This document shows positions 2,078 to 12,032 of a stretch of 64,000 nucleotides of DNA, piece after piece. The DNA lies in NCBI GenBank assembly GCA_902791985.1, contig CADAYD010000012.1, forward strand, positions 62,001 through 126,000, given 5' to 3'. Each line of letters starts with the position of its first letter. The first letter of the stretch is position 1. The notes under the pieces were generated by a model, which had not been told where the DNA came from, made no database searches, and saw only the letters and a list, made by a program, of their open reading frames with translations. The stretch comes from an uncultured bacterium (GTDB taxonomy: Bacteria > Cyanobacteriota > Vampirovibrionia > Gastranaerophilales > Gastranaerophilaceae). Position numbers and translations under genes: made by a program.

Positions 2078-2083
2078 TATAAT
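2078..2083 (+). promoter_or_regulatory. -10 element for the 2116-7694 operon
   Basis: TATAAT about 32 nt before the first ATG of the operon, with AAAGGA between it and the start. Transcription would begin near 2090, giving a conventional short leader. No strong -35 is visible. Confidence 0.5.
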
Positions 2084-2115
2084 CTGATTAAACAGAATAA
2101 AGGATTTTACAGAGT

Positions 2116-3168
2116 ATGAAAAAATTTATAGCATTATTTTTAGTATTGATATTAACATCTTTAAATGGGGTATTTGCTTTTAGTGAAGTTTATTACCTTA
2201 AAAATACTACCCCGTCTGCAATTCAGCCAAGCATTTTAAATGCATTTTATGCGCAAGATTTTCAGGTTGTAGATAATAAAAACCCTTATTATGCTAAGTC
2301 AACAAAGAATCCGAATGATTATGCCGTTGTTATATTGCAGCAAAGCGGGAATAACTCTTTCTATTATTATCAGTCAAACGAGAATAAAAAAATCAATAAA
2401 TATATTATTAAGGCAATAAAAAGAGCAGGAATCTATTATGAACAATCATTTAATACGAACATAATAAATACATTTGATGAAATTGCAAATAGAACAATTC
2501 AAGCTTCAGGCTCGCAAGTTCAAAACAGATACGTATTTAATGATAATGAACCTGATTATTCTTCCGGATACTCAAATACAACGTCCAAAAGCACATATAG
2601 GCAAAATTCCAATACTTATAAAGGATATGTAGCCAATGTTGAAAGCGGAACAAAAATAAATATTTATCTTCAAAGCGCAATAAATACTTCAAGTGCTGTT
2701 GAAGGTGATAGGGTGATTGCTGTTTTAACAGAGGACTTAATGTATAACGGCTGTGTTGTTGCACCTCAGGGCAGCCTTGTGTACGGGATTTTAACCAAAG
2801 CGCGCCATGCAACCTACGGGTCCAGAAATGGCAGAGTTGTTATTGATTTCAATCAGTTAGTTACTCCGGATGGTAAAACATTTAATATAGAAACGGAAAA
2901 AATAGATTTTACGGTTACAAATGAGGGTAAAGTTTCAAGAGTTGCATCTAATGTAGCTGTCGGTGCTGTAGTCGGGACTTTAACAGGTCTTTTAATAGGG
3001 GCTCTGAACGGACATGTTGGGGCGAGCGCTGCAATTGGTGCAGGTGTTGGTGCCGGAGGAGCCTTAATAGGTGGAACTGCCGAAAGAGGTGTCGATGCTG
3101 AAATACCGTCATTTACCGAAATGGAAATTATTCTGACTAAGCCGTTTAGCACGACAATTAGTTATTAA
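2116..3168 (+). CDS. Secreted glycine-zipper protein, first gene of an envelope operon
   Basis: A 350-residue protein with a signal peptide at 1-21 (MKKFIALFLVLIL, cleavage near VFA-FS). The middle is polar, with an S/T/N/Y-rich linker around 140-170. Residues about 170-275 form a beta-rich domain (GDRVIAVLTEDL, APQGSLVYGIL) loosely recalling TrbI/VirB10-like C-terminal domains. Residues about 278-320 are a glycine-zipper segment (VGAVVGTLTGLLIGAL, GAGVGAGGALIGG) able to pack into or across a membrane. It is probably periplasmic or outer-membrane attached. The next gene starts 12 nt downstream, so it is the leader of a five-gene unit ending at 7694. Function unknown; the VirB10 resemblance is weak. 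Confidence 0.8.
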   Translation: MKKFIALFLVLILTSLNGVFAFSEVYYLKNTTPSAIQPSILNAFYAQDFQVVDNKNPYYAKSTKNPNDYAVVILQQSGNNSFYYYQSNENKKINKYIIKAIKRAGIYYEQSFNTNIINTFDEIANRTIQASGSQVQNRYVFNDNEPDYSSGYSNTTSKSTYRQNSNTYKGYVANVESGTKINIYLQSAINTSSAVEGDRVIAVLTEDLMYNGCVVAPQGSLVYGILTKARHATYGSRNGRVVIDFNQLVTPDGKTFNIETEKIDFTVTNEGKVSRVASNVAVGAVVGTLTGLLIGALNGHVGASAAIGAGVGAGGALIGGTAERGVDAEIPSFTEMEIILTKPFSTTISY

Positions 3169-3180
3169 TGAGGTTTTATA

Positions 3181-3843
3181 ATGGATAAGAGATTAATTAC
3201 TGTCGGACTTGTAATTCTTGCAGCGGCTATTTTAATAAAAACATTTGTTGTATTGTTGTCTAATGTTAAAGTTGATGAGTTTCATAAGACTGCAATAACT
3301 TTTGTTGTCGATTCTTCCGCATCTAATCAAACAAAATTACCTAAGCAAATAAAATACATAAAATCTTTGTGTTCAATACTTGATCCTGAAGATGCAATAA
3401 AAATAATAAAAACTGATAAATCTTCGTATCTTATTTATGAAGGAAGCCCTGGCGATGGTGTTGCAATTTCTAATGCTCTTAAAAAATATACTGTAAGCGG
3501 AGTTGATGAAAATTCTTACGGGGAAGCAATAAAAAAAGCTGTTAATTATTCTCTTACAATGAAAAAAAACGGATATAATACCGCAATTGTTGTTGTGGGA
3601 AGCCTTAATGATAAGGGTGATGTTTCTAAACAAATCAATTGGGAAACTTTGCCAAAGAATATTGAAAAAACGCAAAAATATTTACCGGAAATGGCTATGA
3701 TGTTTGTATTTGCAGACCCTGAAAAACTTGATTATGTAAAAACTAAACTTAGTCCGATTTTGGGTGAAAATAAGTTGTTAACTGTAAACGAAGTAAATCT
3801 TGAAAAATCCAATACAAGATTTATAAAGGCGATTGGCAGATAA
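3181..3843 (+). CDS. Membrane-anchored von Willebrand A-like protein
   Basis: A 220-residue protein with one N-terminal membrane span (about residues 6-26). A periplasmic domain begins ITFVVDSSAS; D-S-S-A-S fits the D-x-S-x-S metal-binding (MIDAS) signature of vWA domains. A later strand, NTAIVVVGSLNDKG, fits a Rossmann-like vWA core. vWA domains usually mediate metal-dependent protein contacts. The start has GAGG upstream, and the stop overlaps the ribosome site of the next gene (AAGGAG at 3843-3848), suggesting coupled translation. I infer a structural or assembly role in the same envelope complex as its neighbours. The vWA call rests on the motif and strand pattern only. Confidence 0.7.
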   Translation: MDKRLITVGLVILAAAILIKTFVVLLSNVKVDEFHKTAITFVVDSSASNQTKLPKQIKYIKSLCSILDPEDAIKIIKTDKSSYLIYEGSPGDGVAISNALKKYTVSGVDENSYGEAIKKAVNYSLTMKKNGYNTAIVVVGSLNDKGDVSKQINWETLPKNIEKTQKYLPEMAMMFVFADPEKLDYVKTKLSPILGENKLLTVNEVNLEKSNTRFIKAIGR

Positions 3844-3853
3844 AGGAGTTAAA

Positions 3854-5407
3854 ATGGGTTTTACGGTATGTTCAAAAAATAAAGAGCAAACATTTAAAGA
3901 TAAAAATGTAATTTATATAAGTTCAAAGCCAAATTATGATGTTCAAATAAACACTGATTTTGAATTTATACTGGGTGTCCGTTATGATGAAAAAACTAAC
4001 AGATGTTTAATTGTCAATAAGTATAAGTATCCGCAATTTAAATTCAAGGGTGAAAGTTTGCCTGAAAAAATGATTGTGGATAAAATTTGTAAAATTATGA
4101 TTGACGGCAGTGATGATTTTATAACAATAAAAGTCGGAGAACCTGAAAAAAGTATTTCTGAACAGGCGCAATCATTGAGGATTCCTAATAGTACAGAAAA
4201 AGAAAAGTCTCAAATTGAAAGTGAAAGAGTAAAGATTGTAAAAGAAGTCTCTTCAACAATAAGTGCTTTAAAACGAAAAATTTCAATTAATTCAAAATTA
4301 GGAATTTTATTGCATTTGGGTATGCTTTTAGCATCATTTATTTGTGCATTCGGGATTTCAAATTATTTAATGGGTGTTCCGTTAAGTTCTGATGGTACTA
4401 CTGTACAAATTCAAATGAATGCAAAACTTGTAGTATTTTATGCTTTTATTGTTTATTCCGTCGGTTCGATGCTCAAACAGGGGTTGTATCTTTTTATGCA
4501 GCGAAAATGCGGTAATGACACATCTACTCCAATTATTGTTGAAAAATTAATGATTAGTTTGTCATTACTCTTCTTTGTTTTCATATATTTGATTAATCTG
4601 CTTTATTACGTTTCGGTCAAAGACATGGTCTTTTTTGGAATATTTATTTCGCTTTTCTACTGCGGAACCGCTTTAACTCTTGCTTTAGGTTGCGGTTATT
4701 TTAAACATGGCAGCTCAATTGCAAGGCAGGAGCTTGATAAATATGAGTACAGAGAAGATTTTGAACGTGTGATTAAATCTTATCAAGGCTGGATAGAGAA
4801 TTTTGCTAATTCTTTAAGCGATGTTAAAATTCAAAAAATTAAAGATAAATTGTTTAATCTCCAAATTTGGTCAACTTTAGAAACTAGTCTGGGGATTTTT
4901 ACCGCTCCGTTTTTGGCATACGGAGTTTCAAATACTCTTGCGATGTGTTTCCCTGAAGCAGCAGGCTGGGTAAGGATAGGAGGATTGAGGTTTAGTCCGA
5001 TATTTCTTGTTTTAGCCACATTTTTAATCATATTCGCTTTTTTCTCTTTTGTAAGCGCATTTGCAATAATGAAAAAAATCTCGGCTTCAGATATTATCAA
5101 GCAAGATGGATTTAGCAATTATTTATCTCATGGGGTTGAAATCTACGGTCTTGAAGGTGTAAAGCGCTTGGATTCTGAAATGAGAAGATATATTTTTGTT
5201 GGATTAGCTATAATTTTAATTGAATTTTCAATGAATATCTCATATTTTATGCAAGAAATCGGTTCCGATATGAAAGGTTTATTTATAAGTTGTGTTGCGG
5301 CACTTGTACCAACAGCACTTTTAATTGCAGAAACAATTATGCTTGCGCATACAAGATTTGAGATTTCGGCATCGGAAGAACTAATTGCAAAGATTGATAG
5401 GGAATAA
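3854..5407 (+). CDS. Polytopic membrane protein of unknown function
   Basis: The start is ATG at 3854, behind AAGGAG. An upstream in-frame TTG at 3833 lies inside the preceding gene and has no ribosome site of its own. The 517-residue product has a cytoplasmic beta-rich N-terminal region (about 1-100), a charged, probably coiled segment (about 110-145), then about eight hydrophobic spans: four between roughly 150 and 290, a loop with a charged helix (about 295-345), two between 350 and 410, and two near the C-terminus. I recognise no transporter signature. Its last base pair is shared with the next gene (TAATG), so translation is coupled. It is the likely membrane core of the operon. Confidence 0.75.
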   Translation: MGFTVCSKNKEQTFKDKNVIYISSKPNYDVQINTDFEFILGVRYDEKTNRCLIVNKYKYPQFKFKGESLPEKMIVDKICKIMIDGSDDFITIKVGEPEKSISEQAQSLRIPNSTEKEKSQIESERVKIVKEVSSTISALKRKISINSKLGILLHLGMLLASFICAFGISNYLMGVPLSSDGTTVQIQMNAKLVVFYAFIVYSVGSMLKQGLYLFMQRKCGNDTSTPIIVEKLMISLSLLFFVFIYLINLLYYVSVKDMVFFGIFISLFYCGTALTLALGCGYFKHGSSIARQELDKYEYREDFERVIKSYQGWIENFANSLSDVKIQKIKDKLFNLQIWSTLETSLGIFTAPFLAYGVSNTLAMCFPEAAGWVRIGGLRFSPIFLVLATFLIIFAFFSFVSAFAIMKKISASDIIKQDGFSNYLSHGVEIYGLEGVKRLDSEMRRYIFVGLAIILIEFSMNISYFMQEIGSDMKGLFISCVAALVPTALLIAETIMLAHTRFEISASEELIAKIDRE

Positions 5408-6483
5408 TGACATATAAATCAATAATACAAATATTGCTTATACTTGCAATCATATCGACAATTTGCATCAGCATTATAAAACCGCAGATGCATAAACCTG
5501 TAATGGTTTTAAATTCCCAGTTTAATGTTGAGCATGATGACGGAATAAAAATTGATGAACAAAATATTGCACTTATGGTTCAAAACACAGAGGTTCAGTC
5601 AAATGGCGGACTTGATGTTCAAAATCAGGGGGGGATAAATTTTGTTGAACCAAAAGTTGAAGATGTTGCACCTGTAAGTTTTAAAAATACTCAGACTGTT
5701 ACTCAAAATACTACGAATGTTGAAAATATAAAAACTCAGCCTGTTAAAAATGTTGGGGTAAAAAGTAATAGTACAAATATAAAAACAACTCCAACCAAAG
5801 CGACGAATAATCGGATTAGATCTAATCCGACAAAGATTAATACTCAACCTGTAACAAGTAAACCTGTTGTCACAAATTCTCAGTCCCCAAAAATTGATTT
5901 GAATAAAATAGTAAATAATAATCAAAAAATCATTAATACTCCTGCTCAAACTCAAACTGCTCCAGTACAAAGTGTTCCTGTGACGACAACAAAACCGCAG
6001 CAACCAACACCAACGCAAACCACAAAGCCGCAAGAAACTAAGCCGTCTATAAGGATTGAAACGCAGAATAATAATTCGCATAAGCCTGTTAGTAGCCAAA
6101 GTCAGACTACTCCGATTGTTTTAACTGCGCAGCAGGAAGAAATTGCGTGGAATAAATGGCGTTCAAATTTGAATAATCAAATTATGAAGGATTCAAAACT
6201 CCCGACAATGCCAAACGGTATAATTTTTAAATATAAGTTTACGGTTGATAAATACGGGAAAATTTCCAATGTCCAGACATCATCAACCACTCCAGGATAC
6301 ACCCCTTATGCAATTCAATTTATAGCTCCTGTAATAAGGAGTTATCAGGGACGTTCAATTTTGAATTTCCCTGCAGGGTCAAATAGAGTATCAACCGAAG
6401 TTTCCGGAGCATGGAAAATTTCTAATAATTCAAAACTTTCTACTCCGGATGATTATCACGACATAGAAAAAATTAAGAAATAG
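5407..6483 (+). CDS. TonB-like protein with Q/T/P/N-rich linker
   Basis: A 358-residue protein: an N-terminal membrane anchor (about residues 5-21), a long low-complexity linker rich in Gln, Thr, Pro and Asn (about 90-235), then a compact C-terminal domain (about 245-345) with TonB-C-like strands (FKYKFTVDKYGKISNVQ). This anchor/extended linker/globular end layout is typical of proteins that span the periplasm. No ExbB or ExbD gene is nearby, so energy transduction of the classical kind is not supported. It overlaps the stop of the upstream gene by one base and is followed 8 nt later by a second protein of the same layout. Confidence 0.7.
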   Translation: MTYKSIIQILLILAIISTICISIIKPQMHKPVMVLNSQFNVEHDDGIKIDEQNIALMVQNTEVQSNGGLDVQNQGGINFVEPKVEDVAPVSFKNTQTVTQNTTNVENIKTQPVKNVGVKSNSTNIKTTPTKATNNRIRSNPTKINTQPVTSKPVVTNSQSPKIDLNKIVNNNQKIINTPAQTQTAPVQSVPVTTTKPQQPTPTQTTKPQETKPSIRIETQNNNSHKPVSSQSQTTPIVLTAQQEEIAWNKWRSNLNNQIMKDSKLPTMPNGIIFKYKFTVDKYGKISNVQTSSTTPGYTPYAIQFIAPVIRSYQGRSILNFPAGSNRVSTEVSGAWKISNNSKLSTPDDYHDIEKIKK

Positions 6484-6491
6484 GTAGATAA

Positions 6492-7694
6492 ATGTATAAA
6501 TGTAGTGAATGTGGAACAGAATATAATATTGCACCAAAATATTGTGATTGTGGAAACGATATTTTTATAAATATAGATGATGAAAATGAATTAATTGCCA
6601 AAGAAATGGATGTAAATGAGGAAGGCTCGGGGCAAACTTCAAAATATCGCGGCAGAGGAAGAAATTTTAAACAAAAATCATTTTCTCCTGTGGCTTTGAG
6701 CATATTTGTAATTTGTATTGTATTGTCGTTTTTGGTTCTTTTTGTAATAGCAAATCCTAAAAAAGATAATTCAAAAGTTCAAATTAAAGGAGAAACAGGA
6801 GAAGAAATAGAAATTCCTTCGGTTGATGCATATTGGGATAATACTCCTGCAAAACTTGCTAAAAAAAATGAGGTGCAACCACAAAAACAAGAAAATATTT
6901 TGGATAAATTTGTTCAGCAAATTATTCCTCAAGAGCAACCTAAAAAAGAGATTAAAACTGTTGCCACCGCTGTAAAGTCTACGACGCCGGTTCAGAAAAA
7001 AATTGTACAGGTCCCTATAAAAACTCACACTCAAAAATCTTCACAAAAATCAACTCAGTCAACTCAAACATCTTCAAAAGCAACAACAAAATCAGTGTCC
7101 AATCAACCAAGTATGACTGTAGAAGATTTAACAAATAAAATTAGAAGCCAATATGGAAATCAAACTCAGATTCAAAATGTTCCTAAGCAGGTTGTGTCAA
7201 CTTCACAAGTTGCACAAACTCCATCTGTCACAAAAACTAATGCTCCTTTACCGAATACATCAACGACGTCAACAATGGCTCAAAATACTCAAACATCTGC
7301 ACAAAAATCTCAAAATAATACTAAAACTACAACACAGGCTGTAAATAAAACGCCTGTTACTGCCCCTGTTGTTAAGACAAAAAGTACTGCACAGATAAAA
7401 CAAGAACTTGCTGCTTACAAATCGAATTTAAGAAATTCAATAGGCCGCAAAATAGATTTTACGAAGGTTATTGGCGATGGGGAATGTGCACTTTCATTCA
7501 AAGTTAATTCTAACGGAAGGCTTACATCAAAAGCATTTACTAAACAATCTTCAAATATAACGCTAAATGATGCAGCGTTTAATGCTTTAAATACTATGAC
7601 AAGTTTTAACCCGCCTCCTGAGGGGTATAATGGCGAAACCTTGCGACTAAACATAAAATTTTACAATGGGAATTTTGAAATTTCTTTAAATTAA
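6492..7694 (+). CDS. Zinc-ribbon / TonB-like fusion protein
   Basis: A 400-residue protein with an unusual order of parts. Residues 4-20 form a small zinc-ribbon-like knuckle (CSEC then CDC: C-x2-C and C-x-C), which would be cytoplasmic. A single membrane span follows at about 68-90. Next come a T/Q/S/K-rich linker (about 130-300) and a C-terminal TonB-C-like domain (about 305-400) containing GECALSFKVNSNGRL. It resembles the preceding gene in the linker and C-terminal domain and is probably its paralogue. It is the last gene of the operon; an imperfect hairpin with a T-run follows. Function unknown. The cytoplasmic knuckle suggests contact with an inner partner or a nucleic acid. Confidence 0.7.
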   Translation: MYKCSECGTEYNIAPKYCDCGNDIFINIDDENELIAKEMDVNEEGSGQTSKYRGRGRNFKQKSFSPVALSIFVICIVLSFLVLFVIANPKKDNSKVQIKGETGEEIEIPSVDAYWDNTPAKLAKKNEVQPQKQENILDKFVQQIIPQEQPKKEIKTVATAVKSTTPVQKKIVQVPIKTHTQKSSQKSTQSTQTSSKATTKSVSNQPSMTVEDLTNKIRSQYGNQTQIQNVPKQVVSTSQVAQTPSVTKTNAPLPNTSTTSTMAQNTQTSAQKSQNNTKTTTQAVNKTPVTAPVVKTKSTAQIKQELAAYKSNLRNSIGRKIDFTKVIGDGECALSFKVNSNGRLTSKAFTKQSSNITLNDAAFNALNTMTSFNPPPEGYNGETLRLNIKFYNGNFEISLN

Positions 7695-7740
7695 AATAAT
7701 GTTAAGATTTCTTAATAATTCATTATTTTTAGGCAATTTT
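7694..7740 (+). terminator. Terminator after the envelope operon
   Basis: AAATAATG (7694-7701) pairs with CATTATTT (7731-7738), enclosing a second small stem (TTAAG/CTTAA), and a T-run follows. It lies directly after the stop of the last operon gene. Confidence 0.55.
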
Positions 7741-8016: not shown

Positions 8017-8222
8017 GATAAAAAATCCAATTTATTCGCTGTTGTTGAATTTTGTACATTAGGATGAAATGGATTAAAACTGTTTTGGCTCTTTTGGTTT
8101 ATAAAATCAAAAGAGCTTTGTTGTGCAGCGGCTGAATTTTTGGTTTCAAACAACTGCACCGGCTGAACGGCAAACATATATTGCCTTTGTACGGGATTTA
8201 TCGAATTGTCTATCATAATCAA
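8013..8222 (-). CDS. Small Gln/Asn-rich hypothetical protein
   Basis: A 69-residue polar protein rich in Gln, Asn, Ser and Phe, with no membrane span and no recognisable domain. Two nearby starts are possible (ATG-ATT-ATG); a weak AAGAG lies upstream. It is convergent with, and overlaps by 4 bp, the gene at 7792. The length and composition make it a modest call; a comparison with related genomes would show whether the frame is conserved. Confidence 0.45.
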   Translation of the reverse strand: MIMIDNSINPVQRQYMFAVQPVQLFETKNSAAAQQSSFDFINQKSQNSFNPFHPNVQNSTTANKLDFLS

Positions 8223-11681: not shown

Positions 11682-12032
11682 ATGAAGTTAATGATTAATG
11701 GCATTTCGAGTGATAATAAGGTAAGATTAGAGTATTCTAATTCCCCGTCAAAACCTCGCTATGCTCCTGCGTATGTGATAAGTGGTGAGCGTGCAGACGA
11801 ATTTGTAAAAAAATACAATGAACAGTCAAAAAATCTTTTACGCAATACTTTGTTTATGACTGTTGCAGGTATAATTATCGGTGGAGGAATTGGTTTATCC
11901 GGCAGATTTACGAAATTATCTTTGGCTTTAAAGTCAAGTATAGGGGCGATTGTTGGTCTTATATCAGGTATGATATTGTCAGAACATCAAAAAAGTAAAC
12001 TCATGGATGAATATCATGTTGAGGAATTTTAA
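11682..12032 (+). CDS. Small two-span membrane protein, unknown
   Basis: A 116-residue protein with a polar N-terminal half containing a basic/aromatic stretch (SKPRYAPAYVISGE), then two glycine-rich hydrophobic segments at about 60-76 (TVAGIIIGGGIGLSG) and 84-102 (GAIVGLISGMIL), and an acidic tail. The glycine pattern suggests tightly packed helices. TAAAAT lies at 11667-11672, 9 nt before the ATG, and no ribosome site is visible. It follows murJ by 45 nt and is convergent with the CooC-like gene. Function unknown. Confidence 0.6.
   Translation: MKLMINGISSDNKVRLEYSNSPSKPRYAPAYVISGERADEFVKKYNEQSKNLLRNTLFMTVAGIIIGGGIGLSGRFTKLSLALKSSIGAIVGLISGMILSEHQKSKLMDEYHVEEF

Follow-up and report, generated by a model that had tools for sequence, protein, structure and literature searches.

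A conserved five-gene envelope cassette combining VirB10-, vWA-, FHA- and TonB-type domains in the Gastranaerophilaceae

Gastranaerophilales are gut bacteria, the non-photosynthetic kin of cyanobacteria. Five genes, here called GZ, VWA, TM8, TB1 and ZnTB2, occupy positions 2116–7694 of a 64-kb stretch of DNA (the window; contig CADAYD010000012.1, assembly GCA_902791985.1) from an uncultured member of the family Gastranaerophilaceae. The source assembly comprises 1.9 Mb in 34 contigs and is 97.8% complete. All five open reading frames (ORFs), first recognized from the sequence alone (the original prediction), were confirmed as tightly spaced on the forward strand, with gaps of 12, 10, −1 and 8 nt. 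Their order is conserved in relatives, and profile searches place them in no single known system; an undescribed envelope system is therefore well supported as a genetic module. The genes and the features within them are as follows.

2116–3168, + strand: GZ (gene 1), ORF of 350 amino acids (aa)
2179–2511, + strand: N-terminal alpha/beta domain of GZ (AlphaFold2 model)
2620–3165, + strand: VirB10/TrbI C-terminal domain of GZ, as assigned by Pfam, hhalign, Foldseek and VIA
2926–3090, + strand: glycine-zipper stretch of GZ, in the place of the membrane-inserting 'antenna' helices of VirB10, from weak Gly-zipper Pfam matches
3181–3843, + strand: VWA (gene 2), ORF of 220 aa
3295–3630, + strand: vWA domain of VWA, predicted periplasmic, after an N-terminal membrane anchor (Pfam VWA)
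3854–5407, + strand: TM8 (gene 3), ORF of 517 aa
3854–4141, + strand: predicted cytoplasmic FHA fold of TM8 (VIA and Foldseek on the AlphaFold2 model)
about 4295–5353, + strand: eight-helix membrane domain of TM8 (AlphaFold2 model), matching no known family
5222–5224, + strand: Glu457 of TM8, where membrane helix 7 is most hydrophobic (local hydropathy 1.85), invariant in 33 of 33 sequences
5330–5332, + strand: Glu493 of TM8, in membrane helix 8, likewise invariant in 33 of 33
5407–6483, + strand: TB1 (gene 4), ORF of 358 aa
about 6124–6417, + strand: conserved C-terminal domain of TB1 (orthologue alignments)
6492–7694, + strand: ZnTB2 (gene 5), ORF of 400 aa
6501–6554, + strand: zinc ribbon of ZnTB2
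6681–6752, + strand: membrane helix of ZnTB2, followed by a low-complexity linker
7410–7661, + strand: TonB C-domain of ZnTB2 (PF13103, TonB_2)

That the five genes form one functional unit is best supported by their phyletic pattern: the genes of this arrangement (GZ-VWA-TM8-TB1-ZnTB2, the type A cassette) are inherited all or none. Of 60 genomes, 37 belong to the genus, the window's among them, and 23 do not; type A TM8 was found in 19 of the 60. ZnTB2 (E < 1e-40) was detected in the same 19 and, alone, in one assembly of 390 contigs. GZ, counted with its N-terminal domain or as a fragment truncated by a contig end, occurred in 18 genomes, none of them outside this set. Genus genomes that carry only the type B cassette described below have neither GZ nor ZnTB2. 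In a class-wide sample of 382 genomes, TM8 was present in 200, all belonging to the window's family. TM8 was also found in one 66%-complete genome of another family, where transfer or a binning error could account for it.

Of 80 related loci, 66 have all type A genes in order and none has them rearranged; the short gaps are conserved. One or two genes went undetected in the remaining 14, which may include loci cut at contig ends. These 80 loci are a separate collection, partly overlapping a set of ten genomes compared over 12–19 kb around the type A cassette, in which the gene order is constant and the flanking genes differ; one of the ten has a 97-aa ORF inserted between GZ and VWA. All five genes are under purifying selection (dN/dS, the ratio of nonsynonymous to synonymous substitution rates, about 0.06–0.23 against four relatives), although dS is near saturation and the values are rough. 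An ordinary operon of five envelope genes without physical partnership would sit well with the smaller gene sets of types B and C, but it is highly improbable, since the type A genes occur together or not at all despite changing flanks and their short or overlapping junctions are conserved.

The single promoter and single terminator of the original prediction were not confirmed. Promoter-like sites occur at chance level (35 observed, 33 expected), and the only terminator-like site on the + strand (8087–8117) lies about 400 nt downstream of the cassette. A weak A/U-rich hairpin (−6.6 kcal/mol) directly follows ZnTB2, and no stronger structure was found there. The upstream neighbour is a Sua5/YrdC gene; downstream are a small ORF and a SpoIID-like gene, the latter assigned by eye. 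A 116-aa ORF with two hydrophobic stretches (11682–12032) lies four kb from the cassette in the window, and its homologue directly adjoins the cassette in several close relatives (L042–L045). Immediately 5′ of GZ, 20 of the 80 type A loci have a one-helix ORF of 60–108 aa that is absent from the window. These extra ORFs (L070–L141) resemble the N-terminus of TB1, often overlap the GZ start and share the motif CxxKPxMHKPF...IEYxxKINxDGSxTTTKQ. One genome, with 8% contamination, has two near-identical type A cassettes, at L042 (G002:C26) and G002:C61.

Two smaller versions of the cassette were also found. Type B (VWA-TM8-TB1) is the second cassette of the window's own genome (contig C4, 2969–6193), a paralogue that the original prediction had missed. 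Its TM8 is 40–45% and its VWA 48–49% identical to the window copies, and the version is present in 37 of 37 genus genomes, in one as a fragment only. Type C (VWA-TM8-ZnTB2) lacks TB1 and any linked GZ and occurs in genera g36 and g47 (L229, L230 and L231). In a tree of 104 TM8 sequences, type B (16 sequences) and type C (three) are each monophyletic with support of 1.0. Because the reduced types keep VWA and TM8 together with one arm and are each monophyletic, VWA and TM8 look like a core on which the arms TB1 and ZnTB2 may be interchangeable. The conserved upstream neighbour at several type B cassettes is rubrerythrin, regarded as unrelated. In genus g22, two loci with weak TM8 matches (L232 and L233) consist of an FHA-like ORF of about 100 aa only, corresponding to the FHA part of TM8.

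Pfam, profile comparisons and the structural model identify GZ, predicted to be secreted, as a protein of the VirB10/TrbI C-terminal-domain kind. It had been described as a glycine-zipper protein, and three Pfam Gly-zipper models do match it weakly in 10–11 of 11 orthologues, but the VirB10-type domain was then overlooked. PF03743 (TrbI) scored 27.4 bits (E 2.7e-6) against GZ in the genome search and up to 33 bits against an orthologue, below the curated cut-off of 35; TrbI did not appear in a single-protein Pfam scan of GZ, and did in the genome-wide family search and the profile–profile comparison. Throughout, E-values from profile comparison rest on shallow alignments, and column shuffles served as controls. 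With hhalign, GZ matched the C-domains of six plasmid TrbI/TrwE/VirB10 proteins at 94% probability with a score of 55; the reversed profile scored 15, and none of 40 column shuffles exceeded 21. The AlphaFold2 model, built with 68 orthologues, has a pLDDT (predicted local distance difference test) of 78 and confident domains at residues 22–132 and at 168–268 plus 327–350. Searched with Foldseek against the PDB, it returned VirB10, CagY or ComB10 chains as all of its top 20 matches (E 3.6e-7 to 2e-4), the next unrelated match having an E-value of 1.5e-2. VIA-align, in a search that only re-ranks Foldseek matches, superposed residues 172–350 on 6gyb_C with Z 14.0 and a root-mean-square deviation (rmsd) of 2.5 over 113 residues, against Z of at most 8.8 for unrelated rows. 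The final strand, after the glycine-zipper stretch, aligns to VirB10 as well. Comparison of GZ with PDB sequences gave no credible match, and similarities of the N-terminal domain to BamC-N, KA1 or ferredoxin-like folds (Z about 8) were too generic to use. GZ begins with a signal peptide, judged by eye, and has a separate N-terminal domain; it would therefore lack an inner-membrane anchor.

VirB10-like domains are not confined to the cassette. Contig C3 of the window's genome carries, at L212:4650–8984, an ExbB-ExbD-ExbD-TonB operon together with genes for two VirB10-like secreted proteins; the operon encodes one ExbB, two ExbD and a TonB (PF13103/PF03544). ExbB, ExbD, TonB and a VirB10-like gene are adjacent in relatives too, which suggests that VirB10-like proteins serve as outer partners of the Exb motor in this order. 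Thus, the statement that no ExbB or ExbD lies nearby is correct for the cassette but not for the genome, in which PF01618 (MotA_ExbB) has its single match on this contig. Domains related to the VirB10 C-terminal domain number 2–9 per genome in every genome examined. One, at L213:3238–4506, belongs to a 422-aa fusion with S-layer homology (SLH) repeats. The genome's strongest TonB_2 match (65.6 bits) is a 167-aa ORF at C3:56461–56712, outside both cassettes. As originally stated, no TonB-dependent receptor is nearby; its plug domain (PF07715) gave no match even genome-wide, nor in the other genomes of the family that were searched. In the open-licence literature, the combination of TrbI, ExbB and TonB led to one genome paper, which is unrelated.

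The fold of GZ matches the outer-membrane ring subunits of type IV secretion systems (T4SS; VirB10, TrbI, TrwE, CagY and ComB10) in both structure and sequence profile, down to the final strand and a helical stretch where the antenna would be, and GZ is encoded alongside a polytopic inner-membrane protein. A minimal secretion or export channel, in which a VirB10-like ring formed the outer pore and TM8 the inner channel for some substrate, might be read from this. Such a channel is nevertheless rather improbable. No ATPase was found in the cassette by Pfam, as the original prediction had it, and no VirB4, VirB11, VirB9, VirB7, VirB8 or pilin homologue either, and Pfam detected no VirB4, VirB11, VirB9 or VirB7 in the near neighbours. 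The flanks vary, and no conserved cargo gene adjoins the cassettes. VirB10-like domains also occur in other contexts, including beside the Exb motor and in the SLH fusion, so the fold alone is no sign of secretion. In addition, where its T4SS counterparts have an inner-membrane anchor and a long periplasmic stretch, GZ has a signal peptide and a different N-terminal domain. The earlier conclusion that the cassette is no known secretion system agrees with our results for T4SS, the VirB10 C-terminal domain being all that is shared. A role in anti-phage defence was also considered; PADLOC gave no credible match for the five proteins and two paralogues scanned.

The vWA-like domain was upheld: Pfam VWA scores 23.5 bits (E 7.3e-5) against the window copy, just under the cut-off of 23.8, and 25.3 bits against the type B paralogue, above it. 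Most orthologues keep the DxSxS motif, and the window copy has Ser in place of the later metal Asp. ZnTB2 begins with the zinc ribbon originally proposed, its cysteines C4, C7, C18 and C20 being invariant in 11 orthologues. Both arms had been called TonB-like. For ZnTB2 profile evidence points to a true TonB C-domain: PF13103 scores 28.2 bits against a cut-off of 22 (30.8 bits in the genome search), and hhalign matched it to the genome's own TonB at 95%, with 46.9 against at most 15.4 in shuffles. TB1 bears only a weak resemblance. It has an N-terminal membrane helix, a long Q/T/P/N-rich linker and a conserved C-terminal domain, without a zinc ribbon, and no Pfam match was found for it. Its C-domains in types A and B are homologous (hhalign 99.4%), and they match the C-domain of ZnTB2 weakly (28.6 against at most 19.2 in shuffles).

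TM8 had been recognized as an eight-span protein. The AlphaFold2 model, from 33 sequences and with a pLDDT of 84, does show eight membrane helices; the beta-sandwich at residues 1–96, which represents a predicted cytoplasmic FHA fold, had been overlooked. The sandwich aligned to 6ccd, an FHA fold, with a VIA Z of 11.7 over 93 residues (rmsd 2.4) and a Foldseek probability of 1.0, and the TM8 paralogue has a weak Yop-YscD_cpl match (E 0.022). The FHA phosphopeptide residues (GR, SxxH) are not conserved in the orthologue alignment. The membrane part had no match in Pfam, NCBIfam, PADLOC or PDB sequences, and TM8 had no credible match among PDB sequences. In the Foldseek search of the PDB, the FHA part alone was matched confidently, followed by low-probability MATE and GltPh rows, and the VIA rows span residues 1–98; since only the FHA part is covered, the fold of the membrane part cannot be called new. 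Glu457 is kept in two type C copies too. Comparison of the two halves of TM8 by hhalign gave a score of 26.5, a value that none of 100 shuffles reached (22.0 at most), with FGISNYL aligned to YGVSNTL, which is suggestive only of a possible internal duplication. A relationship with ExbB, TolQ or MotA, considered by eye from LTAPFLAYGVSNTL, may still exist but found no support: Pfam MotA_ExbB did not match TM8, and its hhalign score against the ExbB family of this genome fell short of the shuffled controls, both profiles being shallow.

To our knowledge, a single motor family drives the Ton/Tol-type arms described so far: ExbB/TolQ/MotA, partnered by ExbD/TolR/MotB or vWA proteins. The cassette resembles Ton and Tol-Pal in its arms, which have an N-terminal membrane helix, a disordered linker and, in ZnTB2, a TonB C-domain, and in having a polytopic inner-membrane core and no ATPase. 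However, that core is the FHA-8TM protein, with no ExbB/TolQ similarity detected; the cassette contains no ExbD or TolR (no ExbD Pfam match among the five proteins), and its anchor helices have no conserved His (SHLS-type) or Asp. Also, in place of a TonB-dependent receptor, for which the search was negative, the candidate partner linked to the arms is the VirB10-like GZ. The cassette therefore lacks defining features of Ton/Tol as of T4SS and is placed in neither, in agreement with the original view that this is not a standard Ton system. YscD of type III and TagH of type VI secretion systems likewise place an FHA fold on the cytoplasmic side of their envelope machines. YscD has one membrane helix, whereas the FHA of TM8 is fused to eight, and the other components of these systems are absent from the cassette. 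Williams-Jones et al. (2025; PMC12204202) describe vWA force transducers that are tethered to the membrane, occur with TolQ homologues as motors and use either the SHLS motif or an Asp in the membrane. The cassette is similar to them in that a membrane-tethered vWA gene adjoins a gene for a polytopic inner-membrane protein, without ExbD or TolR, and differs in that the VWA anchor lacks a conserved His or Asp and that the (shallow) profile of TM8 shows no likeness to TolQ. A search of the open-licence literature for FHA domain, von Willebrand factor, TonB and VirB10 together found no report, a weak form of absence.

From these domains we infer a topology, a physical assembly, an energy coupling and a route for whatever is moved or signalled; the original proposal of an undescribed trans-envelope machine stands as a genetic module, and its machine part belongs to this reading. 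The chances are about even that the five genes encode one trans-envelope complex with Ton/Tol-type transmission and a different inner-membrane core. TM8 would be that core, with its FHA fold facing the cytoplasm, and the membrane-anchored VWA beside it in the periplasm would serve as adaptor or switch. The arms would be TB1 and ZnTB2, each with a cytoplasmic or membrane start, a flexible periplasmic linker and a C-terminal domain at the outer membrane. No plug domain having been detected, the arms need another outer partner, and the exported GZ could provide it as a VirB10-like ring or anchor touched by the arms. Movement or a signal would then pass from core to arms to ring, and ions flowing past Glu457 and Glu493, buried in TM8, might supply the power. 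The recurrence of a VirB10-like protein with a TonB arm in the ExbB-ExbD-ExbD-TonB operon supports this pairing.

Several observations weigh against the trans-envelope complex. The glycine-zipper or antenna part of GZ (residues 271–325) is modelled with low confidence, and types B and C have no linked GZ, so that a VirB10-like partner must be dispensable or encoded elsewhere. The C-domain of TB1 does not score above shuffles against TonB and is not demonstrably TonB. No column with a majority of Asp, Glu or His was found in the anchors of VWA, TB1A, TB1B and ZnTB2; they therefore lack the motifs known from Ton/Tol arms for docking and for protons. Finally, TM8 has no detectable ExbB/MotA similarity (with low-diversity profiles) and the PDB search misses its membrane part, which makes a motor role for TM8 a guess.

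The main rival is a passive tether or sensor, in which the FHA and vWA domains would act as signal adaptors and the arms and the VirB10-like protein would tie the membranes together or report on the state of the outer membrane, with neither force nor transport. FHA and vWA are typical binding domains, the cassette has no ATPase or recognized proton motor, its anchors carry no conserved acidic or His motif, and the predicted cytoplasmic location of the zinc ribbon and the FHA fold is consistent with signalling. This is possible, if somewhat unlikely, since invariant glutamates buried in the TM8 helices are unusual for a passive scaffold, and the unconserved GR and SxxH weaken the case for classical FHA signalling. 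A bolder form of the trans-envelope complex, in which FHA-8TM and vWA make up a new inner-membrane motor or ion-coupled transducer distinct from ExbB/TolQ/MotA, working through the invariant membrane glutamates to drive TonB-type arms on VirB10-type rings in the three cassette forms of the family, is unlikely and is offered as a conjecture.

If the trans-envelope complex is real, outer-membrane work could be coupled to the inner membrane by a route other than ExbB/TolQ/MotA, and the VirB10 ring domain would serve outside secretion. In a gut lineage that is common, mostly uncultured and little studied in its envelope, the cassette would then be a defining envelope system, and its three versions open the question to testing.

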